From Streptomyces xanthophaeus (GTDB lineage Bacteria; Actinomycetota; Actinomycetes; Streptomycetales; Streptomycetaceae): 64,000 bases of DNA. The translations under genes were made by a program, and so were the position numbers. Below the pieces are notes generated by a model that did not search any database, was not told the origin of the DNA, and saw only the letters and a program-made list of their open reading frames with translations. Positions 27,144 to 50,958 of the stretch are shown piece after piece (positions within the stretch are counted from its first letter, which is position 1; the number at the start of each line of letters is the position of its first letter). The stretch is from assembly GCF_000725805.1 (NCBI RefSeq), contig NZ_JOFT01000031.1:22645-86644 (forward strand). Reading direction: 5' to 3'.

Positions 27144-27174
27144 CGGGGAGGGCGATCTTCTCCCGCCCTCCCCG
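27144..27174 (-). terminator. Terminator ending the long minus-strand gene run
   Basis: A perfect 11-bp stem, CGGGGAGGGCG (27144-27154) with CGCCCTCCCCG (27164-27174), and a 9-nt loop lie 25 nt after the NTF2-like stop codon. It marks the probable end of the transcript coming from the right. Confidence 0.65.
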
Positions 27175-27198
27175 CACACGCTACCCAGATTTCAGAAC

Positions 27199-27540
27199 TT
27201 AGCTGCCGAACCCAGCCGTCTGCCGCCAGATCCGGCCATCGCGGACCACAAGTGTCCCGAACGCGTGCTCCGGTTCGCCGTTCAAACTCATGATCGCCCG
27301 GTAGAAGATGGTGTCCTCTGTCTCGATGTACTCCTGGAGCTCGACCAGCGTGGGCTTGACGGTGAGATAGCCGGTGAACGTCTCGCGAACGGCTTCGATG
27401 CCCACCGAGACCCCCTCGAAGCGCAGCAGTACGGCGTCGTCGGTGTAGTTCTTCATCACCGCCTCAATGTCCAGTGCGGCGAGGGCGTCCATCTGACGGA
27501 CGAACACCGGGTGCAGCTTGGAGATGTCGTACTTGGCCAT
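27199..27540 (-). CDS. NTF2-like (SnoaL-type) small protein
   Basis: A 113-residue protein of the NTF2-like cone fold: an N-terminal helix (F-V-R-Q-M-D-A-L-A-A-L), M-K-N-Y-T-D-D-A-V-L and a beta-rich C-terminus with L-V-V-R-D-G-R-I-W-R. Members are enzymes, binding proteins or accessory subunits, and the role here is unknown. It is the last gene of the run downstream of the histidine kinase (48 nt). Three further NTF2-like genes are at 47.0-48.3 kb. Confidence 0.75.
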   Translation of the reverse strand: MAKYDISKLHPVFVRQMDALAALDIEAVMKNYTDDAVLLRFEGVSVGIEAVRETFTGYLTVKPTLVELQEYIETEDTIFYRAIMSLNGEPEHAFGTLVVRDGRIWRQTAGFGS

Positions 27541-27588
27541 GACGACTCCGTTCTATCAACTGGTGGTGGAACCGGTGGGTGAACTGGC

Positions 27589-29100
27589 TTACTGGTCAGT
27601 TGAGTTGGGGGTGCCGGCTGAAGCGGCAGGGGTGGCGCAGGACTCCGCCGTACCGGCGAAGGGCAGCCTGACGACCATCCGGGTCTCACCCGGACGCGAG
27701 CGGGCCGTGATCGAACCGCGGTGGCGCTGGGTGACGATCCGGTAGCTGAGGTGCAGGCCCAGGCCCGTACCCTTGCCCACGTCCTTGGTGGTGTAGAAGG
27801 GTTCGAAGATCCGCGGCAGGGACTCCTCGGGGATGCCGCGGCCGGTGTCGGCGACCTCCACGACCATGCAGACCCCCTCGGACCGCGCGCGCAGCGTCAG
27901 TACGCCGGCGCCCTCCATGGCCTCGGCCGCGTTGTCGACCAGGTTGGTCCACACCTGGTTCAACTCGCTCGGATAGCCCGTCAGTTCGGGAAGGCCGGGT
28001 TCGTACTCCCGCACGATGCCGATCCCGGCGAGCTTGGCACGCAGGACGACCAGCGTGTTCTCCAGTCCGTCGGTCACCGGGAAGCTCTGTTCGGGGGCCC
28101 GGTCCAGATTGGCGTAATCCCGGGTGGCGGAGACCAGTTGGGAGATACGGGGACCGGCCGCACGGAGCTCCGCGGCGAGCGAGCGGATCTCCAGCAGCGC
28201 CGCCAGGTGGTCGAGCCCGGCGGCGAGGGCTCCTTCGCCGACCTCCTCCAGCCGCTCCAGCAGCCAGGGCAGTTCCACGCCGAGGTCCGAGACCCCCGAG
28301 CCGAGCAGGCCGGGCCGCTCCGCGCCCGCGCCCTCGGCCCAGTCGGCGATCTCCTCCTCGGCGTCGGCCTGCGCCAGCGCGTCGGTGACCTCGGGCGGCG
28401 GCAGCTTGTCCAGCTCCTCGGCCAGCCGGTCCAATACGGTGCGCTCCGCGCCGGTGGCGGACGCTCCCCAGGCCTGGGCGGTGCGGGTGAGCCGCTCCAG
28501 GGCGGGCGCCAGCTCCTGCGCGGCCCGGGCCACGGCGGCAGCCGGGTTGTTCAGCTCGTGGGCCAGACCCGCGGCGAGGGTGCCCAGCGCCTCCACGGTG
28601 GCCCGTTTGCGGGCCTGCACCTCGGAGGACTTGATCCGCCAGGCCAGGACCGGCAGCAGCACGGCGGCCACGCCGTGGCAGCGGGTCAGCATCTCGAAGA
28701 AGACCGGACGGGCGTAGGCGACGACCGTGGTCGACGGTCCGCTCGCGGCCGCGGTGGCCACGTACGAGCCCTCGGTGAGCAGGGGGAGCTCCCCGGTGAA
28801 CCGGTGGGCGGCGGAGGGCTTGCCGTCGTGGTCCTCGGCGGCCGCGCTGTCCTCCTCGGTGGAGTGCCGGGTGAGCACCTCCTCCCGGCCGTCGACGACC
28901 TTGGTGACCACCAGCCCGCCGGAGAGCAGGACGTGGAAGCCGGTGGCCTCCTCGCCGTCGCGGAAGAGCACCTCACCGTCGGCGAGGACCCGCGGCTCGG
29001 AGACCGAGACCAGCCAGTCCAGCTGTTCCTCGGTGATCCCGGCGAATATCTCCAGGCCGCGCAGGGCGAGGCGCAGCCCGGCGGCGTCCGCGGCGGTCAT
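27589..29100 (-). CDS. Sensor histidine kinase with N-terminal cyclic-nucleotide-binding-like domain
   Basis: A 503-residue soluble protein. A Crp-like beta-barrel domain (about 14-150) is followed by a HisKA-like segment with H181 in L-A-H-E-L-N-N-P and a HATPase domain (N-box L-V-D-N-A-A-E-A-M, D-T-G-R-G-I-P, G-T-G-L-G-L-H). The cyclic-nucleotide pocket has F-T-G-E-L-P-L-L, but the arginine expected to bind phosphate is not at its usual place, so the ligand may not be cAMP. No receiver gene is adjacent; the receiver-flavoprotein fusion at 51.4 kb is a plausible partner. Its ATG overlaps the MFS stop (ATGA). Confidence 0.85.
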   Translation of the reverse strand: MTAADAAGLRLALRGLEIFAGITEEQLDWLVSVSEPRVLADGEVLFRDGEEATGFHVLLSGGLVVTKVVDGREEVLTRHSTEEDSAAAEDHDGKPSAAHRFTGELPLLTEGSYVATAAASGPSTTVVAYARPVFFEMLTRCHGVAAVLLPVLAWRIKSSEVQARKRATVEALGTLAAGLAHELNNPAAAVARAAQELAPALERLTRTAQAWGASATGAERTVLDRLAEELDKLPPPEVTDALAQADAEEEIADWAEGAGAERPGLLGSGVSDLGVELPWLLERLEEVGEGALAAGLDHLAALLEIRSLAAELRAAGPRISQLVSATRDYANLDRAPEQSFPVTDGLENTLVVLRAKLAGIGIVREYEPGLPELTGYPSELNQVWTNLVDNAAEAMEGAGVLTLRARSEGVCMVVEVADTGRGIPEESLPRIFEPFYTTKDVGKGTGLGLHLSYRIVTQRHRGSITARSRPGETRMVVRLPFAGTAESCATPAASAGTPNSTDQ

Positions 29101-30353
29101 GCGGCGCTCCCCTCGGCCTTGGTCCGGGCGGCCAGCCGTACGGTGACCAGCAGGGCGACCGCGCACACCGCGGCGACGGCGGTCATGAAGCCGACGGAGG
29201 TGCGGTGCAGCCCGTGGATGTTGGTGAGCATCCCGGCGAGCACCGCCGGGACGCTCATCGCCAGGTAGGCGAAGACGTATACGGCCGCGGTGAGTTCACC
29301 GCGGTGGGCCGGGTCGGCGAGCGTGCTCAGCGCCCGGAAGGAGCCGAGGAACGCCGCCCCCCAGCCGCAGCCGAGCACCGCCGTGGCCACCAGGAACACC
29401 GGGGCCGAGCCGAGGCCCAGCGCCAGCAGGACCAGTCCGAGCCCGGCGATCAGGCCCGTCAGGCCGAGCACGGCGGTGCGCAGGGCCTCGGTACGGCCGA
29501 GCAGCAGCTGGGCCGCGGTGGCGGCGCCCGCGAGCAGGGCCACGGTGGCCCCGCCGACGAGGTAGTTGGTGGACTGCAGGAGCGAGAGCGCCAGGTGCGG
29601 GCCGAGCGAGAGGTAGAAGCCGCCCACCGACCAGACCGCGACGATGGTCAGGATCAGGACGGTGAAGCGGCCGCGGGCCCCCGCCGGTACGTGGATCCGG
29701 TGCGGGACCACCCGGAAGCGGCCCCCGGCCCCGGGAGCGCTCTCGGGCATCCGCCAGACGCCCGCCAGGCCGACGGCGAAGGCCCCGATCAGCAGGACGT
29801 AGCTGAGGACGGTCGGTGCGGGCGCGAACTGCACGAGCAGTCCGGCCCCGATGCCGCCGAGCCCGATGCCCACGGTCGGCCCGGCGCTGTTGACCTGGGC
29901 GCCGAGCGCGGGCCGGGAGACCGGGGCGAGTTCGAGCAGGGCCGCGCCCATCGCCCCGGTGGCCAGGCCCACGGCGAGGCCCTGCACGGCGCGGGCGGCG
30001 AGCAGCAGGCCGAGCCCGTCGGCGGCGGCGAACAGGGCCATGGAGACGATCGCCAGGACCAGCCCGGCGCTCAGGACGGGGCGCCGGCCCAGGGTGTCGG
30101 AGAGCGAGCCGAACAGCAGCAGCCCGGCCAGCACGGTGACCGCGTAGAGGGCGAAGACCACCGTGATGGTTCCGGAGGACAGGCCCCACTGCTGCTGGTA
30201 GAGGACGTAGAGGGCGGAGGGGACGGAGGAGGAGAGCATCAGCAGGACGAGTACCGCGCCCACCACCCAGAAGCCGGAGCCTCTGGGCGGGGCGGCCGCG
30301 TGCGCGGCCCGGTGCCCGGTCGTCCCCGTGGTCGTTCTCGTCGGTTCGGCCAC
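29097..30353 (-). CDS. MFS transporter
   Basis: A 418-residue major facilitator with 12 hydrophobic segments and the loop motif G-S-L-S-D-T-L-G-R-R-P after TM2. This type resembles drug/solute efflux proteins. It overlaps the kinase gene by 4 nt. GTG at 30353 is the probable start, as upstream sequence reads into a hairpin; TTG at 30365 is an alternative. The substrate is unknown, possibly a substrate or product of the surrounding pathway. Confidence 0.78.
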   Translation of the reverse strand: MAEPTRTTTGTTGHRAAHAAAPPRGSGFWVVGAVLVLLMLSSSVPSALYVLYQQQWGLSSGTITVVFALYAVTVLAGLLLFGSLSDTLGRRPVLSAGLVLAIVSMALFAAADGLGLLLAARAVQGLAVGLATGAMGAALLELAPVSRPALGAQVNSAGPTVGIGLGGIGAGLLVQFAPAPTVLSYVLLIGAFAVGLAGVWRMPESAPGAGGRFRVVPHRIHVPAGARGRFTVLILTIVAVWSVGGFYLSLGPHLALSLLQSTNYLVGGATVALLAGAATAAQLLLGRTEALRTAVLGLTGLIAGLGLVLLALGLGSAPVFLVATAVLGCGWGAAFLGSFRALSTLADPAHRGELTAAVYVFAYLAMSVPAVLAGMLTNIHGLHRTSVGFMTAVAAVCAVALLVTVRLAARTKAEGSAA

Positions 30354-30377
30354 TGCGTCACTCAACTCCCCCGTGAT

Positions 30378-30409: not shown

Positions 30410-31246
30410 TCAGGCGATGGCCCCGGCCTTCGCCAGTGCGCGGGCCGTGAGCACCCCCGCGAGGTGGCCGAGGTACTCGGCCGAGGTGCCGCGCCCGGGG
30501 ACGAACAGCTCCCGGGGTTCGCCGCGGAAGGCGGCGAGCACGGCCTCCGTCGTGTACGGGCCCCCGCGCAGCCGGTCCTCGACCCCGCGCAGGCGCAGGG
30601 CGCGGGGGGTGGCTCCGGTGACGGCGATGCGCGGGCCGTCCGCGGTGATCCGTACGGCGGCGGCGCACACCGGGTAGCGGGTGGCCCGGTCGGCGGTCTT
30701 CTCGAAGGCTCCGGCCCGCCCGGCGTCGGGGACCAGCAGCGCGGTGACGACCGAGCGGGCGGGTGCGCCGCCGGCCGCGAACTCCTCGGCGGAGACGGCC
30801 GAGCGCCCGCCGGGGCCGGCCAGTTCCACGGTGGCGTCCGCGGCGATGGCGGCGACGGGCAGGTCGGTGGCCCGTCCGGGGGCGGCGAGGTTGCCGCCGA
30901 CGGTGCCGAGGTTGCGGACCTGGGGGTCGCCGTTGGCGCGGGCCGCGGCGGCCAGTTCCGGGGCCCCGGCGAGCACCAGCGGGTCCGCGGCGAGTTCGGC
31001 GAGGGTGGTCAGGGAGCCGATCCGCAGGCCCCCGGGGCCGCGGGCGATCCCGCCCAGCTCGTCGAGCCCGCGGATGTCGACGAGCAGCCGGACCCCGTCG
31101 GCGCCGAAGGCGTTCTCGCCGGTGCGCAGCCCGGGCAGCAGGCTCTGTCCGCCTGCCAGGACCCGGGCGCCCCGGGTGCCGGCGAGGAGGGTCAGGGCCT
31201 CGTCGAGGCCGACGGGGCGGACGTAGTCGAACTCGGTGAGGATCAC
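30410..31246 (-). CDS. Molybdenum hydroxylase FAD-binding subunit
   Basis: A 278-residue medium subunit of the xanthine dehydrogenase/CO dehydrogenase flavoprotein type. The A-G-G-Q-S-L-L-P motif (residues about 31-38) and the L-G-T-V-G-G-N-L-A motif bind FAD. It passes electrons from the molybdenum and iron-sulfur subunits. GTG start overlaps the stop of the large subunit gene (GTGA). Confidence 0.88.
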   Translation of the reverse strand: MILTEFDYVRPVGLDEALTLLAGTRGARVLAGGQSLLPGLRTGENAFGADGVRLLVDIRGLDELGGIARGPGGLRIGSLTTLAELAADPLVLAGAPELAAAARANGDPQVRNLGTVGGNLAAPGRATDLPVAAIAADATVELAGPGGRSAVSAEEFAAGGAPARSVVTALLVPDAGRAGAFEKTADRATRYPVCAAAVRITADGPRIAVTGATPRALRLRGVEDRLRGGPYTTEAVLAAFRGEPRELFVPGRGTSAEYLGHLAGVLTARALAKAGAIA

Positions 31247-33669
31247 TGGGCTTCTCCTCGCAGGCGGCGCCAGACCTTCTCGGGGGTGAGCGGCATGTCG
31301 ATGTGCTGGACGCCGAGGTCGGAGAGGGCGTCGACGACCGCGTTGACGACGGCCGCGGCGGGCGGCACGGTGGCGATCTCGCCGGCGCCCTTGGCGCCGA
31401 GCGGGTTGTGCGGGGTGGGCGTGACCGTCTTGTCGAGGGTGAAGAGCGGTACGTCCGCGGCGCGCGGCAGGGCGTAGTGGTCGAGGTCGGCGCTGATCAG
31501 CAGTCCGTTCTCGTCGTACTCGGCGATCTCCATCAGCGCCTGGCCGAGGCCGTGCGCGATGCTTCCCTCGATCTGGCCGAGGACCACCTTGGGGTTGCCG
31601 ATGTGTCCGGCGTCGTCCACGGCCGTGTAGGCGACCACCTCGGTCTCGCCGGTCAGTTCGTCGACCTCGACGACCGCGACGTGCGTACCGAAGGGGTAGT
31701 TGAAGTCCGGCGGGTCGAAGTGGGTGGTCTCGTCGAGGGCCGGTTCGATCTCCGGCGGCAGGCCCCAGCCGTACCACATGGCCATCGCGAGCTCGGCGAA
31801 GGTCTTGGTGTTCTCGGGGTTGCCCTCCTCGAAGATCTTGCCGCCCTCGTAGACGACCTTGTCCTCGGGGACGCCCAGGAAGACGGCTCCGGCCCGGATC
31901 AGCTTGCTCTTGATCTTCCGGGCGGTGAGCGCGACGGCCGGGGCCGCCATGCTGTAGGAGCGGGAGCCGTAGGTGCCCTGACCGTACGGGGCCTTCTGGG
32001 TGTCGCCCTCGTGCACCTGGACGCTGTCCGGGTCGATGCCGAGTTCGTCGGCGGCGACCTGGGCGAAGACGGTGCCGTGGCTCTGGCCGGTGGAGGCGGA
32101 GCCGACGGTGACGGTGACCTCGCCGGTCGGGTGGACCCGGATGTTGGCGCTCTCCCAGGTGCCGCCGAGCATGCCCTCCTGGGACATCCGGGTGGAGGGG
32201 CCGACGCCGCAGATCGCGACGTACGTGGCGAGGCCGACGCCGAGCCGTTTGCCGCGGGCGCGGGCCTCGGCCTTGCGGGCCGGCATGTCGGCGTAGCCGG
32301 ACAGCTCGATCGCCCGGTCGAAGTTCAGCTGGTAGTTCCCGGAGTCGTAGGTCCAGCCCAGACCGTTGTCGTAGGGGAACTTCTCCTTCGGGACCAGGTT
32401 CTTGCGCCGGACGGCCGCCGGGTCCATGCCGATCTCGGCGGCGTAGCGGTCGACGAGGCGCTCCATCAGGAACGCGGCCTCGGCGCGCCCGCTGCCGCGC
32501 TGGGCGCCGAGCGAAACGGTGTTGGTGAAGGCGGCGTAGACCTCGCAGAAGGCCGCGTCGATGTCGTACATCCCGCTGATGGAGCGTCCCATCAGGGCGG
32601 TGGCGACACCGGGGCCGATCGTCGAGGGGTAGGCGCCGAGGTTGGCGTAGCTGGTGCAGCGCACGGCGGTGATGCGGCCGTCGCGGGTGCCTGCGAGGGT
32701 GACGTGCTGGCGGTGGTCGCGGCCCTGGACGGTGGAGCTCATCAGCCCGGTGCGGGTGTCCACCCATTTCACGGGCCGTCCGAGCGCCTTGGACAGGAGC
32801 AGGACCAGCGGCATGTCGGGGTACAGGTACCCCTTGGTGCCGAAGCTGCCGCCGACGGTCGGGGCGATCACCCGGAGCTTGTTGAAGGGGATGCCGAGGA
32901 CCAGCGCGGAGAGCAGGAAGCGGTGGTTGTGCGGCCCCTGGGTGGTGGCGTACAGGGTGTACTCGCCGGTGACGGGGTCGTAGTCGCCCACCGCGCCGCG
33001 CGGTTCGATGGGGCTGTTGATGGTGCGCTGGTTGACGAGGTCGAGTTCCACGGTGACCTCGGCCGAGGCGATGGCCGCGTCGGTGCGGTCCTTGTCGCCG
33101 CAGGTCCAGTACGCGTTCAGGTTGCCGGGGACGGCCTCGTGCAGCTGGGGCGCGCCTTCGGCGAGGGCCTCGTCGGCCCGGGTGACCACGGGCAGGGGCT
33201 CGTACTCGACGGCGATCGCGGCCAGTGCGGCGGCGGCCTGGCGCGGGGTCTCGGCGACGACCACGGCGATGGGGTCGCCCACGTGGCGCACGGCGTCCGC
33301 GGTGAGCACGGGGCGGGCGCCGGGAAGTCCGTAGGGGTGGGGCGGGAAGTGGCTCTCGACCCCGCCGGGTATCCAGATGCAGGGCAGCGGCATCACGTCG
33401 GTGAAGTCGGCGGCGGTGGCCACCTTCAGCACGCCGGGCAGCTGTTCGGCCGCCTTGGTCTCGATGGAGAGGATCCTGGCGTGGGCCACGGTGCTACCCA
33501 GGATCGCCATGTGGGCGGTGCCGGGCAGATCGATGTCCGCCACGTACTTCGCCTCGCCGCGCAGCAGCTGCGGGTCCTCGCGGCTGTCCAGCGGCTGTCC
33601 GAGCAGGCCGTTCCCGATGGATGCGGTCTCCTGCGGCTGAGCCGTCTGCTCCCCCGTCACTGCGGTCAT
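31243..33669 (-). CDS. Molybdenum hydroxylase large subunit
   Basis: An 808-residue molybdopterin cytosine dinucleotide or molybdopterin-binding subunit of the xanthine dehydrogenase superfamily, normal in length. N-terminal aldehyde oxidase a/b hammerhead domain (R-G-E-A-K-Y-V-A-D), then molybdopterin-binding domain with G-G-S-F-G-T-K-G, the G-S-G-R-A-E-A segment and the catalytic glutamate in G-A-K-G-A-G-E-I near the C-terminus. The A-Y-R-C-S-F-R loop of form I CO dehydrogenase is absent, so CO is not the expected substrate; an aldehyde or N-heterocycle is more likely. ATG at 33669, with GGAGG upstream. Confidence 0.88.
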   Translation of the reverse strand: MTAVTGEQTAQPQETASIGNGLLGQPLDSREDPQLLRGEAKYVADIDLPGTAHMAILGSTVAHARILSIETKAAEQLPGVLKVATAADFTDVMPLPCIWIPGGVESHFPPHPYGLPGARPVLTADAVRHVGDPIAVVVAETPRQAAAALAAIAVEYEPLPVVTRADEALAEGAPQLHEAVPGNLNAYWTCGDKDRTDAAIASAEVTVELDLVNQRTINSPIEPRGAVGDYDPVTGEYTLYATTQGPHNHRFLLSALVLGIPFNKLRVIAPTVGGSFGTKGYLYPDMPLVLLLSKALGRPVKWVDTRTGLMSSTVQGRDHRQHVTLAGTRDGRITAVRCTSYANLGAYPSTIGPGVATALMGRSISGMYDIDAAFCEVYAAFTNTVSLGAQRGSGRAEAAFLMERLVDRYAAEIGMDPAAVRRKNLVPKEKFPYDNGLGWTYDSGNYQLNFDRAIELSGYADMPARKAEARARGKRLGVGLATYVAICGVGPSTRMSQEGMLGGTWESANIRVHPTGEVTVTVGSASTGQSHGTVFAQVAADELGIDPDSVQVHEGDTQKAPYGQGTYGSRSYSMAAPAVALTARKIKSKLIRAGAVFLGVPEDKVVYEGGKIFEEGNPENTKTFAELAMAMWYGWGLPPEIEPALDETTHFDPPDFNYPFGTHVAVVEVDELTGETEVVAYTAVDDAGHIGNPKVVLGQIEGSIAHGLGQALMEIAEYDENGLLISADLDHYALPRAADVPLFTLDKTVTPTPHNPLGAKGAGEIATVPPAAAVVNAVVDALSDLGVQHIDMPLTPEKVWRRLRGEAQ

Positions 33670-33674: not shown

Positions 33675-34196
33675 TCACACCTCCGTTCCGGCTGCGGTGG
33701 CCGCGGCGGCCGCGGGCACCTCGGCGCGGTCGGCGGCGCAGGCGCGCTGCACTCCGCGGACCACGCTGTGGTAGCCGGTGCAGCGGCACAGGTTGCCGGT
33801 CAGCCATTCGCGGATCTCGGGTTCGGTGGGCGCCTCGCCGTCCGCGGTGGAGTCGACGAGTTCGCCGAGGGACATGACCATGCCCGGGGTGCAGAAGCCG
33901 CACTGGGTGCCGTGTTCCTGGCGCAGTGCCTCCTGGAGGCCGGACAGTTCACCGCCGGGGGTGGTGACCCCTTCGATGGTGGCCACCTCGGAGCCGGCCG
34001 CCGAGGCGGTGAGGACCAGGCAGCTCTTGACGGAGCGGCCGTCGAGCCGGACGACGCAGGTGCCGCACTGGCCGGTGTCGCAGCCGACCTTGGTGCCGGT
34101 CAGGCCGAGGCCGTCGCGCAGCCGTTCCACGAGCAGTTCGTTCGGCTCCGCCGAGAACTGCTCGGGTCTTCCGTTCACCTTCAGTTCGATATCCAT
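33675..34196 (-). CDS. Molybdenum hydroxylase [2Fe-2S] subunit
   Basis: A 173-residue small subunit with two [2Fe-2S] cluster sites: plant-type C-D-T-G-Q-C-G-T-C plus a later C (residues about 39-61), and C-G-F-C with C-R-C-T-G-Y in the helical domain. An alanine-rich C-terminal tail is extra. It lies 5 nt before the large subunit gene, giving the order small-large-medium on the transcript. Its ATG overlaps the end of the upstream F420/NADP-type reductase gene by 16 nt. Confidence 0.9.
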   Translation of the reverse strand: MDIELKVNGRPEQFSAEPNELLVERLRDGLGLTGTKVGCDTGQCGTCVVRLDGRSVKSCLVLTASAAGSEVATIEGVTTPGGELSGLQEALRQEHGTQCGFCTPGMVMSLGELVDSTADGEAPTEPEIREWLTGNLCRCTGYHSVVRGVQRACAADRAEVPAAAAATAAGTEV

Positions 34197-34807
34197 GCCA
34201 GCGCCTGCGCTTCCGTGAGCGGCCGGTTGAAAAGGGGCCCGCCGGGCTGCTGGAGAATTCCTCCGGAGTGCAGCGGGCCGGTGTCGACGGGCGCGAATCC
34301 GAGATCCGTGATGATTCCCGCGACGATTTCCTTCGCTTTTGCGTCGTCGCCCGCCACGAAATGGGCGAGGCGCTCCGACCCTTTGCGTTCCGGCGCGGTG
34401 CCGGCCACGGCGAGGGTCTCGAAATGCATGGTGTTCAGGGATTTGACCAGCCGTGCGCCGGGATACCAGTCGGCGACGAGTTCGCTGGATCCGCGGGTGC
34501 CGAGGTCCCGGGGTGCGCCGGGGCCGCTGAAGGCGTTGGTGGCGTCCACGAGCAGGGTGTCGCGGACGGCCTCCTGCGGCAGGAGGCCGCGGACGCTGTC
34601 GAAGGGCAGCATCAGCACCAGGAGTTCGGCCCGGCCGGCGGCCTCGGCGGGGTGCGCCGCCGAGGCCGCCGGTCCCAGTTCGGCCACGAGCGGGCCGAGG
34701 GTCTGCGGGCCGCGGGCGTTGGCGAGGACGACCTGGTGTCCCGCCGCCACGAGGATGCGGGCGAGGACCGTGCCGATCCGCCCGGTGCCGATGATGCCTG
34801 TCTGCAT
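34181..34807 (-). CDS. NADP-dependent F420-type oxidoreductase
   Basis: A 208-residue Rossmann protein of the F420-dependent NADP oxidoreductase-like family: N-terminal G-I-I-G-T-G-R-I-G, then the N-A-R-G-P-Q-T nucleotide-specificity loop, and the K-S-L-N-T-M-H-F-E segment. Members reduce NADP with F420H2 or act as NADP-dependent reductases. AGGAGAG precedes the ATG. It overlaps the [2Fe-2S] gene, so it is co-translated with the molybdenum hydroxylase subunits and may recycle its electron carrier (inference). Confidence 0.78.
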   Translation of the reverse strand: MQTGIIGTGRIGTVLARILVAAGHQVVLANARGPQTLGPLVAELGPAASAAHPAEAAGRAELLVLMLPFDSVRGLLPQEAVRDTLLVDATNAFSGPGAPRDLGTRGSSELVADWYPGARLVKSLNTMHFETLAVAGTAPERKGSERLAHFVAGDDAKAKEIVAGIITDLGFAPVDTGPLHSGGILQQPGGPLFNRPLTEAQALAWISN

Positions 34808-39977: not shown

Positions 39978-42115
<2,138 letters not shown>

Positions 42116-42119
<4 letters not shown>

Positions 42120-42466
42120 CGCGCGGCCTTCGCCCTGGCCTTGGCGGCCGCGGCCGCGGCCTCGCCGGTCTCGAAGAAGTCGAGGAACCCGGTGGCCGAC
42201 ATGACGAACCGGACTTCCTCGCTCACCCCGTAGAGGGTGACGGCGACGCCCTCGTGCTGGGCCTCGCGGTAGACGACGAGCAGGGTCCGCAGTCCCGCGC
42301 TGGAGACGTAGGTGACCGCCGTGAGGTCGATCTTCAGCGGCTTGCCCTCGCGGACCAGCGGCAGGAGTGCCTGGAGCAGTGAGCCGGATGTCTCGCTGTT
42401 GATCTCGCCGGTGGCGACGAGCACGGTGCCCGTCTTGTTCCGGCGTTCCTTGACGTTGAGAGTCAT
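42116..42466 (-). CDS. STAS domain anti-sigma factor antagonist, copy 2
   Basis: A 116-residue STAS protein with S55-S56 in Y-V-S-S-A-G-L-R at the phosphorylation position and an alanine-rich C-terminal tail. It is not a recent duplicate of copy 1. Its stop overlaps the glgX start. A GGGGCGCCCC palindrome lies in the 37-nt gap before its start. Confidence 0.88.
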
Positions 42467-44325: not shown

Positions 44326-44772
44326 TCATGCACCGTCCTTGTCGTGAGAGCCCTTGTGAGAGCGGTCGTCCTCGAACCCCTGGCTGACCTCGACGATCAC
44401 CCCGTCGGGATCGCGGACCCACACGGTCCGCCACCCGCAGATGAAGTCGTCGAAGTCCAGCGGACCCAGGGTCACTTCGGCCGCGTCCCCCAGCGTCGCC
44501 AGGAACGCGTCCACGTCGTCGGTCTGGAAGGCCAGGTGGCGCATCCGGCCCGGGGCCTGCGGCCCGTCCTCGTGCGCCTCGCGGGCCGGTTCGGTGTCGG
44601 CCGCGAAGAGCTCCAGGTAGGCGTCCCCCTTGCGCAGGAACACGATCTGCGACTCCCCGAGATCGACCACCCTGGCCCGGGCGAAGCCGAAGTGGCGGGT
44701 GTAGAACTCCTCGGTCGTCTTCTGGTCGGTGCAGTTCAGGCCCACGTGCGACCAGACCATGGAGCCCGGCAT
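44326..44772 (-). CDS. VOC family (glyoxalase/dioxygenase fold) protein
   Basis: A 148-residue vicinal oxygen chelate protein: S-H-V-G-L-N-C start with H in the metal position, F-Y-T-R-H-F-G-F, R-H-L-A-F-Q-T-D-D-V and C-terminal V-R-D-P-D-G-V-I-V-E-V. Metal ligands (H, H, E) appear to be present. Glyoxalase-, dioxygenase- or isomerase-like action on a metabolite of this pathway is possible. It overlaps the upstream DJ-1 stop (TGATG). Confidence 0.83.
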   Translation of the reverse strand: MPGSMVWSHVGLNCTDQKTTEEFYTRHFGFARARVVDLGESQIVFLRKGDAYLELFAADTEPAREAHEDGPQAPGRMRHLAFQTDDVDAFLATLGDAAEVTLGPLDFDDFICGWRTVWVRDPDGVIVEVSQGFEDDRSHKGSHDKDGA

Positions 44773-45410
44773 CAGGGGGCACCTCCCAGCGGTGGCCGGG
44801 GGACGGCCCCCCGGCCCCGTCCGGCGGAGACCAGCTCGATGATCCGGCGGGCGAAGAGGTGGTGGTGGGCGCCGGTGCGGCCGGTGACCAGGTCCCCGTC
44901 GACGACCACGTCCTCGTCCACGTACTGCGCGCCCATGTTCCGCACGTCACCGATGAGGTTGTTGTGGCACACCACCTTGCGGCCCCGGATCTTGTCCGGG
45001 ATGGAGGAGGCCAGCCACATGCCGTGGCAGATGATCCCCTTGAGGACTGATCGCTCCTCGAAGGCCCGGCGCAGCAGCTCCGTCGCCGGGGCCAGCCGGT
45101 CCACGTCCTCGGTGTAGCGCAGCCGGTCGGCCACCATGCCCGAGGGCACGATGATCGCCGCGTACCGGCGCAGGTCCTCGTCGCTCAGCCCCTCCAGGGA
45201 CAGGCTGGCGGTGAAGGGCGCCCGGTACTCGTGGCCGGCGAAGGTGATGGACTCGTTGCCCCACAGCCGGGTCAGGAAGTCGACCTCGGCGCCCTCCTCC
45301 GCGAACCGGTGCTGGTAGTAGAAGACCTCGGGCTCGTAGAAGTCGCTCTCGATCAGGACCGCGATCCGGGTCCCGGACAGCGCGCCCTCGCGCAGGACCG
45401 CATCAGGCAC
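44772..45410 (-). CDS. DJ-1/PfpI family protein, copy 2
   Basis: A 212-residue DJ-1/PfpI protein with nucleophile cysteine in I-I-C-H-G-M-W and an A-I-I-V-P-S-G strand before it. This form is closest to PfpI/YhbO-like protease or deglycase proteins. The GTG at 45410 overlaps the end of the GMC oxidoreductase gene by 8 nt. Confidence 0.8.
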   Translation of the reverse strand: MPDAVLREGALSGTRIAVLIESDFYEPEVFYYQHRFAEEGAEVDFLTRLWGNESITFAGHEYRAPFTASLSLEGLSDEDLRRYAAIIVPSGMVADRLRYTEDVDRLAPATELLRRAFEERSVLKGIICHGMWLASSIPDKIRGRKVVCHNNLIGDVRNMGAQYVDEDVVVDGDLVTGRTGAHHHLFARRIIELVSAGRGRGAVPRPPLGGAP

Positions 45411-47016
45411 GGGACACCCCCTTCAGGAAGTCCGCCGCGCGCTCGGCGATCATCGCGATGGCGGTGTGGCAGTTGCCCGACGGGACGGCGGGCATCACGC
45501 TGGCGTCGACGACGCGCAGGTTCCGTACGCCGTGCACCCGCAGCTCGGGGTCGACGACCGAGAGGTCGTCGATGCCCATGCGGCAGGACCCGGCCTGGTG
45601 GTGGTAGCTCTCGGACTTCTGCTTCACGAAGGTCCGCAGGTCCTCGTCGGAGACGTAACCGGGTCCCGGCTGGAGCTCCTGCTTGTACCAGGGCGAGAAG
45701 GCCGAGGTCGCGAAGATGTCCCGGGCGATCTTCACGCCCTGCACCATCCGCTCCAGGTCCCAGCGGTCGCCCAGGTAGTTCGGGTTGATCAGCGGGTGGG
45801 CCAGCGGGTCGGCGCTCGCCAGCCTGATCCAGCCGCGCGAGACCGGCCGTACGACTCCGGGCAGGATGGACACCGTGTTCGGGTGGTCCTGGCCGACGAT
45901 CACGTCGAAGGGCACGTGGACGAAGGCGATCTGCAGGTCCGGCGCGGGCAGACCGGGCTGCGAGGACAGGAACAGAGCGCTCTCGGACAGGTTCTGCGCC
46001 GGCGGCGGGAGCTCCTGGGTGACCTCGGCCATCAGCCCGGTCAGGACGTGGTTGTGGAAGTTCTCGCCGACGCCGGGCAGGGCGGCGGTGACCGCGATGC
46101 CGTGCTCGCGCAGCTGCTCGGGGTGGCCGATGCCGGAGAGCAGCAGCAGCTTCGGGGACTCGATCGCCCCCGCCGCCACGATCACCTCCCGGCGGGCCCG
46201 TACGGTGTGCTGCCCGGGCGCCGCCGCGCTGCTGTGGCCGTCCCGGACGGTGCGGCCCGGGAAGTCGGCGGGGGGCTGGAGCTGGACGTACTCGACGCCC
46301 GTGCAGGTGTCCCCGTCGAAGAGCAGGCGGCTGCTCTGCGCATTGGTGCGCAGGGTCAGGTTGGGCCGTTCCAGCGCCGGCTCCAGATAGGCGGCGAGAA
46401 CGCCCTGGCGGCGGCCGTCGGCCACGTCGATGTGGTGCCAGCCGGTGCCGAAGAGGCCGCGCCGGGGTCCGTCGGTGTTGAAGTCGGCGATCTCCTGGTG
46501 GCCCAGTTCGACGGAGGCGTCGATGAAGGCGCGGGAGACCGGGTTGGGACCGTGCTGACCGGCGTTGGTGATCCGCTGCGGCCCTCGGGTCCCGGTGGCG
46601 GGTCCGGTGGCGTCCTCCTGGCCCTCCAGCAGGGCGAAGTACGGGAGCACGTCCTCGTGGGCCCAGCCGGCGGCGCCCTGGTAGGCCCAGTTGTCGAAGT
46701 CCGAGGCGTGGCCCCGGATGTGCATCATGATGTAGAGGTTGCTGCTGCCGCCGGGGGCCTTGCCGCGCGGTTCGTAGGTGCGGCGGCCGTCCAGGCCGGG
46801 CTGCGGGACGCTGGTGTAGCCCCAGTCCACGGGCCCGCCGAGCAGCTTGTACCAGGAGGACGGGTCGTCCACCTCGGGCGGGATGCGGGAGCCGCCCGCC
46901 TCCAGGACCAGGACGGAGACGTCCGGGTCCTCGGAGAGGCGTCGGGCCAGGACACTGCCCGCGGTGCCGGATCCCACGACGATGTAGTCGTACTCTTCGG
47001 TTTCTGAGACGCCCAC
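45403..47016 (-). CDS. GMC family oxidoreductase
   Basis: A 537-residue FAD enzyme of the glucose-methanol-choline family. The N-terminal V-G-S-G-T-A-G-S-V-L and L-E-A-G-G motifs bind FAD; G-G-S-S-N-L-Y matches the first GMC signature; the active site H is in H-H-Q-A-G-S-C-R-M-G, with V-P-S-G-N-C-H-T-A at the C-terminus. It oxidises a primary alcohol to aldehyde, like choline dehydrogenase. Start at GTG 47016. Downstream aldehyde dehydrogenase would complete the oxidation to an acid (inference). Confidence 0.88.
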   Translation of the reverse strand: MGVSETEEYDYIVVGSGTAGSVLARRLSEDPDVSVLVLEAGGSRIPPEVDDPSSWYKLLGGPVDWGYTSVPQPGLDGRRTYEPRGKAPGGSSNLYIMMHIRGHASDFDNWAYQGAAGWAHEDVLPYFALLEGQEDATGPATGTRGPQRITNAGQHGPNPVSRAFIDASVELGHQEIADFNTDGPRRGLFGTGWHHIDVADGRRQGVLAAYLEPALERPNLTLRTNAQSSRLLFDGDTCTGVEYVQLQPPADFPGRTVRDGHSSAAAPGQHTVRARREVIVAAGAIESPKLLLLSGIGHPEQLREHGIAVTAALPGVGENFHNHVLTGLMAEVTQELPPPAQNLSESALFLSSQPGLPAPDLQIAFVHVPFDVIVGQDHPNTVSILPGVVRPVSRGWIRLASADPLAHPLINPNYLGDRWDLERMVQGVKIARDIFATSAFSPWYKQELQPGPGYVSDEDLRTFVKQKSESYHHQAGSCRMGIDDLSVVDPELRVHGVRNLRVVDASVMPAVPSGNCHTAIAMIAERAADFLKGVSRA

Positions 47017-47028: not shown

Positions 47029-47409
47029 TCAGCCCTGGCTCAGCACCTGGAAGGGGACGGTGTCGTGGTAGTTCGCCATGTAGGCGATCTTTCCGTCCAC
47101 GATCCGGAAGAAGTTCATGACCTCGGCCTCGATGGCCTCGCCGGAGGCGCTCACGGCGCTCAGGTGGGAGACGGCCGCGGCCTTCTCCCCGTCGACGAGG
47201 AAGTGCACGGGCTCGTTCCGGAACACCCGGTACATGGTGCCCATGCCCTTCATCATCGAACGCAGCACCTCCAGGCCCTCGATGTGGCCGGCCAGCTGCT
47301 CGTCCATGACCTGGTCGTCGGCGAACAGGTCGCACCAGCGGTCCCAGTCCCCGGCGTTGGCGTACTCGTAGTACTTCTCAAGGATCTGCTCGGCGTCCAT
47401 CGCGCTCAT
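47029..47409 (-). CDS. NTF2-like protein 1 of 3
   Basis: A 126-residue NTF2/SnoaL-like protein with the pattern Y-A-N-A-G-D-W-D-R-W-C-D-L-F-A-D-D and a beta-rich second half. The first ATG sits directly after GGGGG; the in-frame ATG at 47400 has better spacing and may be the real start. It lies 12 nt before the GMC gene. Function unknown. Confidence 0.75.
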   Translation of the reverse strand: MSAMDAEQILEKYYEYANAGDWDRWCDLFADDQVMDEQLAGHIEGLEVLRSMMKGMGTMYRVFRNEPVHFLVDGEKAAAVSHLSAVSASGEAIEAEVMNFFRIVDGKIAYMANYHDTVPFQVLSQG

Positions 47410-47413
47410 CCCC

Positions 47414-47869
47414 CTATCGGTCCCTGCGGGTTCCGTCGGGCGCGAACGGCGCCCAGAACTGGCTGAAGGCGGAGGCGGTGTCGCCGAAGAGGCCGTCGCG
47501 GCCCTCGACGATCCGGCCGTCCTGCCACCGCATGTAGTGGAAGACCGGGTAGTCCATCCGCTCGTACGGGGACCCGCTCCCCGGCTCCGCGCCGTCCCGC
47601 ACGGCGACGTTGCGGCACACGTCGGCGCTGCAGTCCTCGCCGACGAGGACGGCTTCCAGGTCCATCCGGAAGGTGCCGCCCGTGAGCTTGTGGGTCTGCC
47701 CCATCAGCTCCAGGAAGGCGTCCAGGCTCTCGTACCAGCCGGCGAGCGGGTGGTTGCCGGGCACCAGCCAGCGCAGGTCCTCGGAGTAGTACTCCAGGAT
47801 GCGCGCGCGGTCACCGGAACCGAGGGCGGCGTAGGCCGCCCGGACCCGGTCCGCTGTCACTTCGGTCAT
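47414..47869 (-). CDS. NTF2-like protein 2 of 3
   Basis: A 151-residue NTF2/SnoaL-like protein (R-A-A-Y-A-A-L-G-S-G-D, Y-Y-S-E-D-L-R-W-L-V-P-G-N-H). The start at ATG 47869 has AAGGAG 8 nt upstream; the frame to 48010 overlaps the preceding gene and is not supported. Stops 4 nt before NTF2-like 1. Confidence 0.77.
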   Translation of the reverse strand: MTEVTADRVRAAYAALGSGDRARILEYYSEDLRWLVPGNHPLAGWYESLDAFLELMGQTHKLTGGTFRMDLEAVLVGEDCSADVCRNVAVRDGAEPGSGSPYERMDYPVFHYMRWQDGRIVEGRDGLFGDTASAFSQFWAPFAPDGTRRDR

Positions 47870-47892
47870 CGTCGCTTCTCCTTCGCCGGCGC

Positions 47893-48327
47893 TCAGAGCG
47901 AACCGGAACCGGGCATCGGCGCCAGGTCGTTGACGGTGTACTGCTTGATCAGCGGCCCGTCCGGGCCCGCGACGACGGTCCAGGTCTGGTCGGCGTCGAA
48001 GCCGAGCCACTGACTGCGCGCGCCCGGCGGGTCCCAGATCTTGGCCTGCCAGTTGACGAGGACCCGCACGACCGCGCGGTCGCCCTCGATGACGGGCTCG
48101 ACCTTGGTGACCGTGTGCACCTCGTCGAAGAACCGGTTGGTGACGGCCTCGTACCAGCGGCCGAAGCCCTCGTGTCCGAGGAAGGTGTCCTCGGGGACCT
48201 TGAACTCCAGGTCCTCGGTGATCAGGGCGAGCACCTCGTCCAGCCCCACGTGCCGGTCCAGTGCGACGTACCAGTCCTCGGCGAAACTGCGGATCGCGTC
48301 CTCGGTCAACTGCCGCTCGGCGGGCAT
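47893..48327 (-). CDS. NTF2-like protein 3 of 3
   Basis: A 144-residue NTF2/SnoaL-like protein (W-Y-V-A-L-D-R-H-V-G-L-D-E-V-L-A-L-I, E-F-K-V-P-E). GGAGGAG precedes its ATG. The three tandem genes differ in sequence, so they are not recent duplicates; they may form a hetero-oligomer or act on related molecules. Confidence 0.77.
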   Translation of the reverse strand: MPAERQLTEDAIRSFAEDWYVALDRHVGLDEVLALITEDLEFKVPEDTFLGHEGFGRWYEAVTNRFFDEVHTVTKVEPVIEGDRAVVRVLVNWQAKIWDPPGARSQWLGFDADQTWTVVAGPDGPLIKQYTVNDLAPMPGSGSL

Positions 48328-48376
48328 GCGCTCTCCTCCTGCTTCCGTGTGTTGCGTGCTGCGTGCGTGCTCCGGT

Positions 48377-50020
48377 TCAGATCTGGACGTCGACGAGGAA
48401 CGGCCCGGGGTGCGCCAGCATCCGGCCCACGGCGGCGACCGCCTCGTCCGGCTTCTCCACCCGCATCCCGCCGGCGCCCAGCGAGCGGGCCAGCCCGGCG
48501 AAGTCGATCTCCGGGTGCGAGAGGTCGAAGGAGCCCGGGAAGCCGTGCTCGGGGATGTCCCGCTCCCGCCAGTACTGGGCGATGTTGTCGTCCAGCAGCC
48601 GGTACTTGCGGTTGTTGCAGACCACGAACTTGGCGTCGATGCCGTGCCGGGCAGCGGTCCACAGCGCCTGGTACGTGTACATCGACCCGCCGTCCCCGGC
48701 GAAGCCGACGACCAGCCGGTCCGGCCGGGCGAGCTTCGCCCCGACCGCGCCCGGGAAGCCCACGCCCAGCGAGCCGCCGCGGGTGAGGTGGTAGTCGCCC
48801 GGCCGCTCCGGCGGCAGGTACCTGGTGACCAGCGGGGAGGTGGTCAGCGCCTCGTCGAAGACGATGAGGTCCTTGCCCGTGCGCTCCGCCAGGGTCCGCA
48901 GGAAGACGGCCATCGGCGTGCCGTCGTCCGCGGCCGCCCGTTCCTCGCGGGCCCGCTCCCGGGTCCGTACGTCGAGCCGGGCGGCCGCGGCGGCCCGCTG
49001 CTGCGGGGTGAGCCGCTGCTCCAGTACGCCGGCCAGCGCGCGCAGCGCCTGCCGGGGATCCGCGGCGAGGCCGAGGTCCACGGGGTGGTTCTTGGCGATC
49101 TCGTAGGCGTTGAGGTCGATGTGGACGACCTTCGCGCCCGGCCGGAAGGGGCTCTCCAACTCGGGGAACACCTCCGGGAAGACGTAGGTGCCGACGATCA
49201 GCACCCCGTCGGCCTCCCCGATCAGCTCCTTGCTGTGCGGGCCGAACATGTGGCCGCTCTGGCCGCGCCGCAGCGGGTGCGACGCCGCGATGTTCACCTC
49301 GGAGGAGTCGACCTCGTACACGTCGGCGCCCAGCAGCTCGGCGACGGCGGCGAGTTCGGCCTGTGCCCCGGAGAGCGAGACCCCGTCCCCGATGAGGAGG
49401 ACCGGCTTCCGGGCGGGGGCGAGCAGCTCGGCCGCCCGCCCCACCGAGGCCGGGGAGGGCGCCACGTCCGTGAGCGGCACCGTGGTGGGCAGGACGGGCT
49501 CGGAGTTGAGCTCGTCCAGCACGTCCATCGGAAGCGCCACGAACACCGGTCCGCGGGGCGGGGTGAGCGCGATCTTCACGGCCCGCCGGATGGTGCGCAG
49601 CACCGAGTGCCGGTCGGTGACCCGGGTCGCGTACTTGGTCACCGGCTTGGCCATGGCCACCAGGTCGGACGCCATCTGCGCGTCCATGGCGTCGTAGCGC
49701 ACCCCGGCGTCACCGGCGACCACGACGAGCGGGGTGTGGCCGCGCAGCGACTGGTAGAGCATCCCTATGCCGTTGCCCAGCCCCACCCCGGAGTGCAGTT
49801 GGAGCAGGGCCGCGCCGCCGGTGGCCCGGGCGTAGCCGTCGGCGATGCCGGCGGCCACGGTCTCCTGGAGGGCGAGGACGTACTGGAAGTCCTCCGCCGC
49901 GTCCACGGCGTCGAGGAATCCCTGTTCCACCGTCCCCGGATTTCCGAACATCACATTCAGGCCGTCGGCCTTGAACTGCTCGATCAGCCTTTCCCGTCCG
50001 GGAGTGGCTCCGGTATTCAT
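48377..50020 (-). CDS. Thiamine diphosphate-dependent 2-oxoacid decarboxylase (benzoylformate decarboxylase/ALS-like)
   Basis: A 547-residue ThDP enzyme with the three domains of the decarboxylase/acetolactate synthase family. The cofactor-activating glutamate is E53 in L-A-L-Q-E-T-V-A-A-G; the diphosphate motif G-D-G-G-S-M-Y runs to N-N-R-K-Y. No FAD-binding Arg cluster typical of acetolactate synthase was noted, so a decarboxylase (2-oxo acid to aldehyde) is preferred. The ATG at 50020 has GAGGGGGAG upstream; the frame to 50407 is an artefact overlapping DJ-1 copy 3. Confidence 0.82.
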   Translation of the reverse strand: MNTGATPGRERLIEQFKADGLNVMFGNPGTVEQGFLDAVDAAEDFQYVLALQETVAAGIADGYARATGGAALLQLHSGVGLGNGIGMLYQSLRGHTPLVVVAGDAGVRYDAMDAQMASDLVAMAKPVTKYATRVTDRHSVLRTIRRAVKIALTPPRGPVFVALPMDVLDELNSEPVLPTTVPLTDVAPSPASVGRAAELLAPARKPVLLIGDGVSLSGAQAELAAVAELLGADVYEVDSSEVNIAASHPLRRGQSGHMFGPHSKELIGEADGVLIVGTYVFPEVFPELESPFRPGAKVVHIDLNAYEIAKNHPVDLGLAADPRQALRALAGVLEQRLTPQQRAAAAARLDVRTRERAREERAAADDGTPMAVFLRTLAERTGKDLIVFDEALTTSPLVTRYLPPERPGDYHLTRGGSLGVGFPGAVGAKLARPDRLVVGFAGDGGSMYTYQALWTAARHGIDAKFVVCNNRKYRLLDDNIAQYWRERDIPEHGFPGSFDLSHPEIDFAGLARSLGAGGMRVEKPDEAVAAVGRMLAHPGPFLVDVQI

Positions 50021-50064
50021 CGAACTCCCCCTCAGTCTCTCCGTCGACCCTGCACCCGCCGGAA

Positions 50065-50889
50065 TTACCAGCCGTATCGGGTGAGACCGTCCTCCAGGAC
50101 TTCCACGATCTTCTGCCCCGTGAGATAGGAATCGGGGGTGGAACGTCCGGTGACGAAGGGGAAGTCGACGATGACCGAGACCGGCTTGCCGAAATTCCCG
50201 TGGTACGCGCCGCGCGGGCCCGTGGCATCGCGCAGGATGTATTCCAGCGGGTACGGTGGCGGCCCCATGTTGAAGTCGGTACCGAGGAATCCGGTGCCGT
50301 CCTTGTAGTCGTACTCCTTGCAGTGGCCGGTCACGTGCTTGCCCCAGATGATGCTCTTGCGGTCGCTCCAGTCCCGGGCGAACGCCAGGCAGGCGACCCC
50401 GTAGCACTCCGCGGCGACGACCTTGCCGGCCTTCTCGAAGGCCAGGATCAGGGCGTGCACCCGCTCGTTGTTGGCGAGGTCGGCGATCGGTCCGCTTCCG
50501 CCGACGATCAGGATCGCGTCGTAGCCGTCGATGTCGGCGTCGAGCTTGTCCAGGTCGCGGTGGTACTGCTCCAGTTTGCGGAGGTAGCCCTCGTCGCTCG
50601 TGTACGGGCGCTCGGGCACCCAGGCCTCGATGTCGAGCGGCGAGTCCAGCCGGCTCGACTGCTCGAACTCCCGGCCCAGCCGGGCGTTCTCCTCCGTGGT
50701 GACCGAGCGTCCCAGCGGAGGGTCGATGTAGGTCGCGTCGAGGCTCGGCGGGAGAGCGTGCGCCCGCTTTCCGGTCGGCGTGGCGAATATGACCTCGTAG
50801 CCCCGCTCATCGAACTTGGATACGGGCCCTATCAGTTCTTCGGCCCAGTAACCGTGTTCGGAGACAATGACCAGAATCTTTCTGCTCAC
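50065..50889 (-). CDS. DJ-1/PfpI family protein, copy 3
   Basis: A 274-residue DJ-1/PfpI protein with nucleophile cysteine in A-A-E-C-Y-G-V-A and an I-L-I-V-G-G-S-G strand. It begins K-I-L-V-I-V-S-E-H-G-Y-W-A-E-E, very like copy 1. GTG at 50889 has GGAGG 6 nt upstream. It is the first gene of the long minus-strand run. Confidence 0.8.
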   Translation of the reverse strand: MSRKILVIVSEHGYWAEELIGPVSKFDERGYEVIFATPTGKRAHALPPSLDATYIDPPLGRSVTTEENARLGREFEQSSRLDSPLDIEAWVPERPYTSDEGYLRKLEQYHRDLDKLDADIDGYDAILIVGGSGPIADLANNERVHALILAFEKAGKVVAAECYGVACLAFARDWSDRKSIIWGKHVTGHCKEYDYKDGTGFLGTDFNMGPPPYPLEYILRDATGPRGAYHGNFGKPVSVIVDFPFVTGRSTPDSYLTGQKIVEVLEDGLTRYGW

Positions 50890-50929
50890 GAATTCCTCCA
50901 GGCGCCGCCTGTTGTCGTTGGCGTCCCCC

Positions 50930-50958
50930 ACACTGGCCGTGCCCGGTGCCTGCGTCAA
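50930..50958 (-). promoter_or_regulatory. Candidate promoter of long minus-strand run
   Basis: On the minus strand TTGACG (plus 50953-50958) and CAGTGT (plus 50930-50935) are 17 nt apart, 41 nt before the DJ-1 GTG. The -35 is an exact fit to TTGACN, the -10 partial. Confidence 0.4.

Follow-up and report, generated by a model that had tools for sequence, protein, structure and literature searches.

What brings a glycogen debranching enzyme and a sugar epimerase-like protein into one operon with the components of a partner switch, and what part do the oxidative enzymes play that accompany them in Streptomyces xanthophaeus? The question is raised by a 64,000-nucleotide stretch of contig NZ_JOFT01000031.1 (positions 22,645 to 86,644), analyzed here as a whole and called the window, from a genome of 8.62 Mb in 162 contigs. 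Between positions 50889 and 27199 of the window, 24 genes follow one another on the minus strand, and in their midst lies a set that resembles the icfG operon, so far studied as a cyanobacterial carbon regulator. The passages on icfG in the papers cited below do not explain the presence of a partner switch in one operon with a glycogen enzyme and an epimerase-like protein, and among the titles that searches of the open PMC literature listed, none deals with an actinobacterial icfG cassette. We argue that the operon was probably built around an icfG-type carbon switch, i.e. a device for alpha-glucan and carbon control with interchangeable sensors, and was enlarged by oxidative genes.

The core of the set comprises genes, assigned by Pfam, for an AGE-like sugar isomerase/2-epimerase (42504..44324), a STAS protein of the anti-anti-sigma type (STASa, 42116..42466), the glycogen debranching enzyme GlgX (39978..42119), a second STAS protein (STASb, 39650..39961), an RsbW-like anti-sigma factor and serine kinase (39180..39653) and a SpoIIE/PP2C phosphatase (37939..39198). 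These core genes 1 to 6 stand on one strand in the order AGE-STAS-GlgX-STAS followed by RsbW and SpoIIE, and a gene for a MinD-like ATPase with the Walker A motif RGGTGKS (37195..37938), which stays with the cassette in several phyla, comes next. This is the same, homologous core as that of the Synechocystis icfG operon. The run at locus L151 of Synechocystis salina reads CMD, DJ-1, AGE, STAS, GlgX, STAS, a 634-aa SpoIIE protein and RsbW, so that genes for DJ-1, AGE-like, STAS, GlgX, STAS, SpoIIE phosphatase and RsbW kinase lie on one strand in both organisms, and the S. salina AGE and GlgX proteins are 62-63% identical to those of the window. By contrast, the order of RsbW and SpoIIE is swapped between the two, the window adds the MinD-like ATPase and 16 further genes, its host is not photosynthetic, and a CMD gene occurs in only 4 and a LarA-like gene in only 1 of the best 80 of 558 loci described below, none of them of the window type. 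The identity of the cassette is well supported. In Synechocystis PCC 6803, slr1852-1862 are described as one salt-repressed operon with the Slr1855 epimerase, the Slr1856 anti-sigma antagonist, GlgX and IcfG (PMC8670252), and the relevant passages of a second paper list Slr1861, Slr1856, Slr1859, IcfG and an isoamylase as products of the icfG cluster (PMC12329169). The same passages present Slr1861 as an anti-SigC factor and kinase, cite its action on both STAS proteins from earlier work, let the phosphatase act on one STAS protein and report a carbon phenotype (PMC12329169). The Synechocystis partner switch is linked to inorganic-carbon and glucose regulation; elsewhere, a passage mentions IcfG as the outgroup in a cyanobacterial phosphatase tree (PMC9430166).

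Are the window's proteins equipped for such a task? GlgX scores 698.2 against the TIGR02100 cut-off of 640.9, being the only one of 10 window proteins scanned against NCBIfam to pass a specific cut-off, and it has its GH13 catalytic acids, just as the kinase retains its N-box and the phosphatase its PP2C metal-binding Asp residues (all read by eye, at motif positions that we assume to be the relevant ones). Both STAS proteins keep the Ser aligned with the SpoIIAA site (VSSAG, within YVSSAG, in STASa; MASAG, within YMASAG, in STASb), which we take to be the site of phosphorylation. The window thus shares three protein types and their mechanistic residues with the classical RsbV-RsbW-RsbU/SpoIIE switches, such as Bacillus sigB and the Streptomyces SigB homologues; it differs from them in having two STAS proteins, metabolic enzymes between the switch genes and a run free of a sigma gene. 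The modeled AGE-like protein (predicted local distance difference test score, pLDDT, 84.7) has the fold of D-mannose isomerase and the glucose/cellobiose 2-epimerases (target template modeling score of 0.84 with 5x32; also 8h1l and 3wkf), and it has PF07221, the invariant His and the WWQQEQ motif in common with that family, from which its length of 606 aa and additional beta domains at either end set it apart. At 1e-5 it matched no NCBIfam model, and a profile search of PDB sequences, made with its substrate in mind, returned no solved relative at E 1e-6. The phosphatase model (pLDDT 85.0) comprises a receiver, a coiled coil and a PP2C domain, and its closest solved structure is RssB of Pseudomonas aeruginosa, at 23% identity; unlike RssB, it has a degenerate receiver motif. 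This receiver is probably a pseudo-receiver, because YLVPPF stands where the lysine is expected; the expected acid is missing as well (both motif positions being presumed ones). A receiver-like fold is found where S. salina has a Cache-HAMP membrane sensor, while elsewhere the phosphatase carries Response_reg in three Chloroflexota (one with GAF in addition), GAF in three cyanobacteria and no N-terminal Pfam domain in the Deinococcota protein and one Actinoplanes protein. The sensors are thus swapped by lineage, and since they vary across the group, we do not regard Cache-HAMP as defining it. Sensor swapping as such is not new: a 2004 paper by Zhang and Shi, named in the references of PMC9430166, reportedly deals with sensory domains that Streptomyces phosphatases recruited laterally.

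How widely has the arrangement been kept? Among GTDB species genomes, 558 AGE relatives were confirmed, and the best 80 of them were used, a choice that favours complete cassettes; 63 of these 80 loci had full flanks and fell by AGE identity into two bands, 23 close and 40 distant (<80%; 29 Actinomycetota). All seven core genes were matched in 23/23 close loci. The order AGE-STAS-GlgX-STAS-RsbW/SpoIIE, with the last two either way round, was found in 36 of the 40 distant ones (27 Actinomycetota, 6 Cyanobacteriota, 2 Chloroflexota and 1 Deinococcota, sorted by hand), the four without it being L135, L143, L152 and L161; GlgX follows AGE in 39/40, and a STAS gene lies between them in 38/40. Most loci with a MinD match keep RGGTGKS, in Actinomycetota, Cyanobacteriota, Chloroflexota and Deinococcota alike (YGGTGKT in two Streptosporangium loci; no motif in L109, L141 and L160). 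A shorter Verrucomicrobiota locus outside the 40, L158, has AGE-STAS-GlgX-STAS and then a DJ-1 match, and AGE relatives lie on 20 plasmid records, of which 17 cover at least 80% of the query. Pairwise distances among AGE, STASa, GlgX, STASb, RsbW and SpoIIE correlate at r 0.80-0.93 (over loci L103-L165, with no null control). AGE-STAS-GlgX-STAS-RsbW-SpoIIE(-MinD) is evidently an old cassette, the order of which has been retained over several phyla.

Could the switch genes nevertheless be ordinary Streptomyces partner-switch genes that a stress or catabolic operon picked up and that have no particular bond with GlgX or AGE? Recruitment would have been easy in a genome with 79 HATPase_c_2 matches (E<=0.001, the window's RsbW counted), and most of the scanned enzymes belong to broad families and score under equivalog cut-offs. 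Against this stand the order retained across phyla and a quick RsbW tree, in which 50 cassette rows (the window and 49 others, from five phyla) lie on one side of a branch with an SH-like approximate likelihood ratio (SH-aLRT) support of 99 and 19 own-genome members on the other. The 49 were taken from 70 loci with an RsbW match after most near-identical close relatives had been dropped; the 19 remained from 27 fetched own-genome loci, 7 of which had no cassette-profile match at E 10 and 1 a match that was too short. Local recruitment of the kinase is hence not favoured, and the case for the window's RsbW as an orthologue of the cassette kinases is strong but not final, because many own-genome rows are long branches. 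Generic clustering thus strikes us as very unlikely. The preliminary description of this DNA had seen oxidative metabolism combined with partner-switching control in one run; one conserved unit it is, but its switch genes are no generic add-on and belong to an AGE-GlgX cassette of the icfG type.

The genes around the core are of another kind. On the promoter side, they begin with DJ1a of the DJ-1/PfpI superfamily (50065..50889; ThiJ-like, Pfam PF17124/PF01965, a GTG start with a ribosome-binding site), followed by a thiamine diphosphate (ThDP)-dependent enzyme (48377..50020), three SnoaL/NTF2-like proteins (NTF2a, 47893..48327; NTF2b, 47414..47869; NTF2c, 47029..47409), a choline/alcohol-oxidase-like GMC oxidoreductase (45403..47016), DJ1b, a DJ-1/PfpI protein with an ICHG cysteine motif (44772..45410), and a VOC/glyoxalase-like protein (44326..44772). 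Beyond MinD come DJ1c, also of the DJ-1/PfpI family (36385..37125), a betaine-aldehyde-dehydrogenase-like aldehyde dehydrogenase (34862..36346), an NADP/F420-type oxidoreductase with an F420_oxidored Rossmann domain (34181..34807), the 2Fe-2S (33675..34178, start approximate), molybdenum-binding (31243..33669) and FAD (30410..31246, start approximate) subunits of a molybdenum hydroxylase, a transporter of the major facilitator superfamily (MFS; 29097..30353), a sensor histidine kinase with a cyclic-nucleotide-binding domain (27589..29100) and, as the last gene, NTF2d, SnoaL/NTF2-like (27199..27540). The families named beforehand were all recovered by Pfam on the minus strand and in their places; the same-strand run is real, and its size rises from 23 to 24 with the VOC and NADP/F420-type genes, which had gone unnamed. 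Firm names could not be given to the enzymes: the ThDP enzyme is nearest to benzoylformate decarboxylase at 310.5 against an equivalog cut-off of 493, the GMC protein reaches 402 against 732 for choline dehydrogenase, the aldehyde dehydrogenase 543 against 669 for betaine-aldehyde dehydrogenase, and the molybdenum hydroxylase 646.6 against 991 for TIGR02416, with AQRGSGR in place of CSFR, presumably the mark of aerobic CO dehydrogenase.

Does this equipment point to the catabolism of an external compound (e.g. aromatic, methylated or an alditol), the expression of which the switch would merely tune? One operon does hold a benzoylformate-decarboxylase-like ThDP enzyme, a choline-dehydrogenase-like GMC protein, a betaine-aldehyde-dehydrogenase-like enzyme, a molybdenum hydroxylase and an MFS transporter. 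However, GlgX alone among the 10 scanned proteins passed a specific cut-off, and the catabolic block varies more than the core, which in other actinobacteria also occurs without it and with GlgE behind it. Among the 40 distant loci, DJ1b was matched in 36 (weakly, at 32-37%, in several cyanobacteria), MinD in 28, DJ1a in 25 and ThDP in 24, followed by VOC in 10, GMC in 9, DJ1c in 5, the molybdenum hydroxylase in 2 and the aldehyde dehydrogenase in 1, so that the DJ1c block is almost absent. The oxidative genes thus look like more variable additions to the core. The accessory set is not uniform either, because ThDP and VOC track the core in their distances (r 0.81-0.91) while DJ1a, DJ1b (0.87 with each other) and GMC do so less. 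A catabolic pathway as the point of the operon therefore has, in our estimate, a small chance of being correct.

The neighbours of the core elsewhere lead in a different direction. Of the best 80 of 558 loci, 18 carry a GlgE homologue downstream and on the strand of the core, mostly directly after MinD; 18 have a (weakly) GlgC-like nucleotidyltransferase, 14 a maltokinase and 9 a thioredoxin-reductase-like gene, each count including the query locus L113. Such neighbours tie the core to the metabolism of alpha-glucan and trehalose and, with less force, to thiol redox. Whereas GlgE and maltokinase thus stand near the cassette in other actinobacteria, window-type loci gave no match to either within 10 kb flanks. 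A redox pair, a kinase and a receiver-thioredoxin reductase, frames the window's unit. Divergently from DJ1a, on the plus strand, lie genes for a UBP-type zinc-finger protein (UBPzf, 51167..51439) and a fused receiver and thioredoxin-reductase-like flavoenzyme (51403..53172), both assigned by Pfam. At 8 of 10 other sites, chosen from the 100/199 genomes with a receiver-reductase match, these two genes and one for a cyclic-nucleotide-domain kinase are adjacent (L187 gave no zinc-finger match and L194 no kinase match). The three form a stand-alone cassette at those sites, which here is split to both operon ends. As a separate observation, L149 and L161 (Rhizonema, Nostoc) have GlgX (49%), AGE and STAS and then a receiver-thioredoxin reductase with a kinase, with no RsbW or SpoIIE match in the stretch.

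Is the run a single unit at all? Its 23 junctions range from -19 to +69 nt with 7 overlaps (start codons were picked by ribosome-binding site and position), in keeping with the earlier statement of gaps under 70 nt and many overlaps. All 24 genes in order, together with UBPzf and the receiver-thioredoxin reductase, are present in 11/11 close Streptomyces genomes; the gene-order comparison proposed in the preliminary description thus turned out in favour of the run, the genes not being scattered in all relatives. The coordinates 27144..50958 do enclose the 24 genes, but the conserved unit continues past them over the divergent pair at 51167-53172. The hairpins noticed at 30.38 and 37.17 kb exist (-24 and -22 kcal/mol) and are weaker than the one at the operon end (27120..27200, minus strand; -41 kcal/mol folded alone), which is strong and lies just after the last gene, at the terminator announced at 27.14 kb; it has no T run, and the terminator scan does not list it. 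One might consequently think of separate head-to-tail transcripts (DJ1a-VOC, AGE-MinD, DJ1c-NTF2d) without functional unity, as the hairpins fall together with gaps at 37.2 and 30.4 kb that are among the wider ones, and the blocks differ in distribution, the DJ1c/molybdenum-hydroxylase genes of two Streptosporangium loci (L146, L155) even being divergent and on the other side. This we hold to be quite unlikely, given the full order in all 11 close genomes, the absence of any junction above 69 nt, and the DJ-1, ThDP, NTF2, GMC and VOC genes found again next to the core at some of the distant loci. A split into sub-operons as such is plausible, given that each block behaves like an evolutionary module of its own.

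At the upstream end, the promoter-like site proposed at 50.93-50.96 kb can be read on the minus strand as TTGACG (50958-50953), 17 nt and CAGTGT (50935-50930). TTGACN-16/18-YAGKGT is found in 24/26 upstream regions of close relatives, the window counted; the site itself is weak, and a stringent sigma-70 scan returns no promoter at all for 26.5-52 kb. A divergent promoter-like TGAACC-18-TATGGT (51072..51101, plus strand) was read by eye from the alignment. Placed between the two is an operator-like array (50973..51059) of near-palindromic 12-bp sites, ACYTCNNGARGT, starting at 50973, 51006, 51027 and 51048, i.e. with a conserved, helically phased spacing of 33, 21 and 21 bp; site 4 is degenerate in the window (3 mismatches). 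With up to 2 mismatches allowed, all 25 anchorable regions, the window among them, have sites 1 and 2, 24 have site 3 and 12 have site 4; the 26th region, that of L133, has no anchor yet has three sites 21 bp apart. At one mismatch, six regions together hold 15 sites, where letter shuffles average 0.12, and the paired match in the window has a chance expectation of 0.01; these figures are descriptive only, because the motif was derived from the same closely related sequences. When 55 fetched loci were scanned for paired sites at four spacings, with one mismatch allowed per site, a single match emerged (L142, ~19.6 kb), and hence the array seems to be confined to clusters of the window type. 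One further perfect ACYTCNNGARGT site stands at 26436.

Where does the unit sit, and how did it come to be there? It is flanked by guaB1 (22321-23763) on one side and by a SorC-type gene (56121-57173), rpe, rsmB, fmt and priA on the other, the location given in the preliminary description, which had also taken the two sides for near neighbours in other streptomycetes. This held up: the distance between the first bases of guaB1 and SorC is 1.3-6.0 kb in 41/42 genomes that lack AGE (in the remaining one, G046, the genes are on different contigs), 1.9-7.1 kb in 9 genomes with another AGE type and 33.1-34.0 kb in 11/12 cluster genomes (G012 is rearranged); 65/199 genomes were entered, with values copied by hand and G123 and G011 unscored. 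AGE was matched in 27 of the 199 same-genus genomes, at 92-96% in 11 besides the window's own genome, at 73-74% in 2 and at 56-61% in 13, and its surroundings were compared over ~18-22 kb each side, contig permitting, in 25/26 other genomes (G120, with fragmented contigs, was left out). In G167, whose guaB1 is 97% identical to that of the window, only a C-terminal piece of the globin (residues 147-220 of 231; L196 2571-2792) is left between guaB1 and an RNase gene at the cluster-free guaB1-SorC site; this truncated remnant is most simply explained by a block that was formerly present there and was later lost. Further afield, Sphaerisporangium melleum (L133) has a window-type cluster with an AGE of 87%, which groups in a quick tree with these streptomycetes and apart from four other Sphaerisporangium, so that transfer of the whole unit fits. 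The 11/11 close genomes likewise conserve a DDE-type gene (25045-26382), the TMEM175 gene described next and all genes as far as the globin. The DDE-type gene was nonetheless rejected as evidence of a mobile element as the vehicle here, and it is not counted in the unit because G188 has a 69% relative between guaB1 and SorC although the 6 kb fetched there gave no match to any of the 24 genes. Several features stand on their own: the TMEM175-type potassium channel gene (26434-27177, minus strand) directly after the operon; a sigma factor gene with regions 2 and 4 (ECF-like, 21087-21635, minus strand) just past guaB1 and outside the unit; a nucleotidyltransferase gene between MinD and DJ1c in L133, which has no aldehyde dehydrogenase match in the stretch covered; and Streptomyces sp. 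ISL-87, which has both a window-type cluster (AGE ~93-94%) and one of the 73-74% type (L132 and L147). Loci of the window type are also present in S. lavendulae and S. virginiae. No Rfam RNA at gathering score and no tRNA was found in the window.

How might such an operon work? In the explanation that we favour, RsbW would phosphorylate the STAS proteins, and free RsbW would hold a sigma factor encoded elsewhere. The phosphatase would read a signal through its lineage-specific N-terminal domain and dephosphorylate STAS, which would then capture RsbW and free the sigma factor. From the two ends, the cyclic-nucleotide-domain kinase and the receiver-thioredoxin reductase would feed in the redox state, and a regulator may act at the phased operator-like array. 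An unlinked sigma factor under a carbon/redox switch would thereby control glucan and aldehyde metabolism, with the outcome that alpha-glucan and sugar use is matched to carbon and redox state; the DJ-1, ThDP, NTF2, GMC, VOC, aldehyde dehydrogenase and molybdenum-hydroxylase genes would most likely serve to oxidise aldehydes and dicarbonyls from sugar breakdown or to render them harmless. The target of the switch, the substrate of the AGE-like protein and the role of the oxidative block are matters of inference. Conceivably, though in our judgement unlikely, the unphosphorylated STAS proteins, whose genes flank glgX on both sides, instead dock on GlgX and AGE and set glucan flux post-translationally; RsbW and SpoIIE would then set STAS phosphorylation from redox input, and the MinD-like ATPase would position the complex on glucan granules or the membrane. 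If that were true, the icfG cassette would be a mobile enzyme-control device, beyond a sigma-factor switch.

Several observations weigh against a carbon switch of the icfG type with oxidative additions. No sigma factor gene is found among the 24 genes. S. salina served as a stand-in for PCC 6803, and the window's phosphatase, with a receiver that seems to lack the expected acid and lysine, differs in its sensor from the Cache-HAMP protein of Synechocystis. In L158, RsbW and SpoIIE lie upstream on the opposite strand, and a MinD match is absent in 12/40 distant loci. DJ1a and DJ1b follow the core in their distances at r of only 0.38-0.55 and GMC at 0.53-0.62, and the operator motif was derived from the sequences on which it was then tested. 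Finally, none of the 12 genomes read among the 13 with a 56-61% AGE showed an RsbW or SpoIIE match, several of their contigs ending nearby (that of G102 just past GlgX); on this ground, AGE and GlgX probably can work without the switch. With these points counted in, we still consider the carbon switch enlarged by oxidative genes the likely explanation of the operon.

What does this mean for icfG? Its association of enzymes and switch is, on this evidence, not about photosynthesis, because the full order is found in four phyla and parts of it in a fifth, AGE relatives occur on plasmids, GlgE genes are neighbours in many actinobacteria, and in a streptomycete the core lies within a 24-gene oxidative operon. 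The spread of the cassette points instead to the control of alpha-glucan and carbon state, and it offers heterotrophic hosts in which to study this control. The swapped phosphatase sensors, in turn, amount to a natural experiment on the signal that the switch reads.

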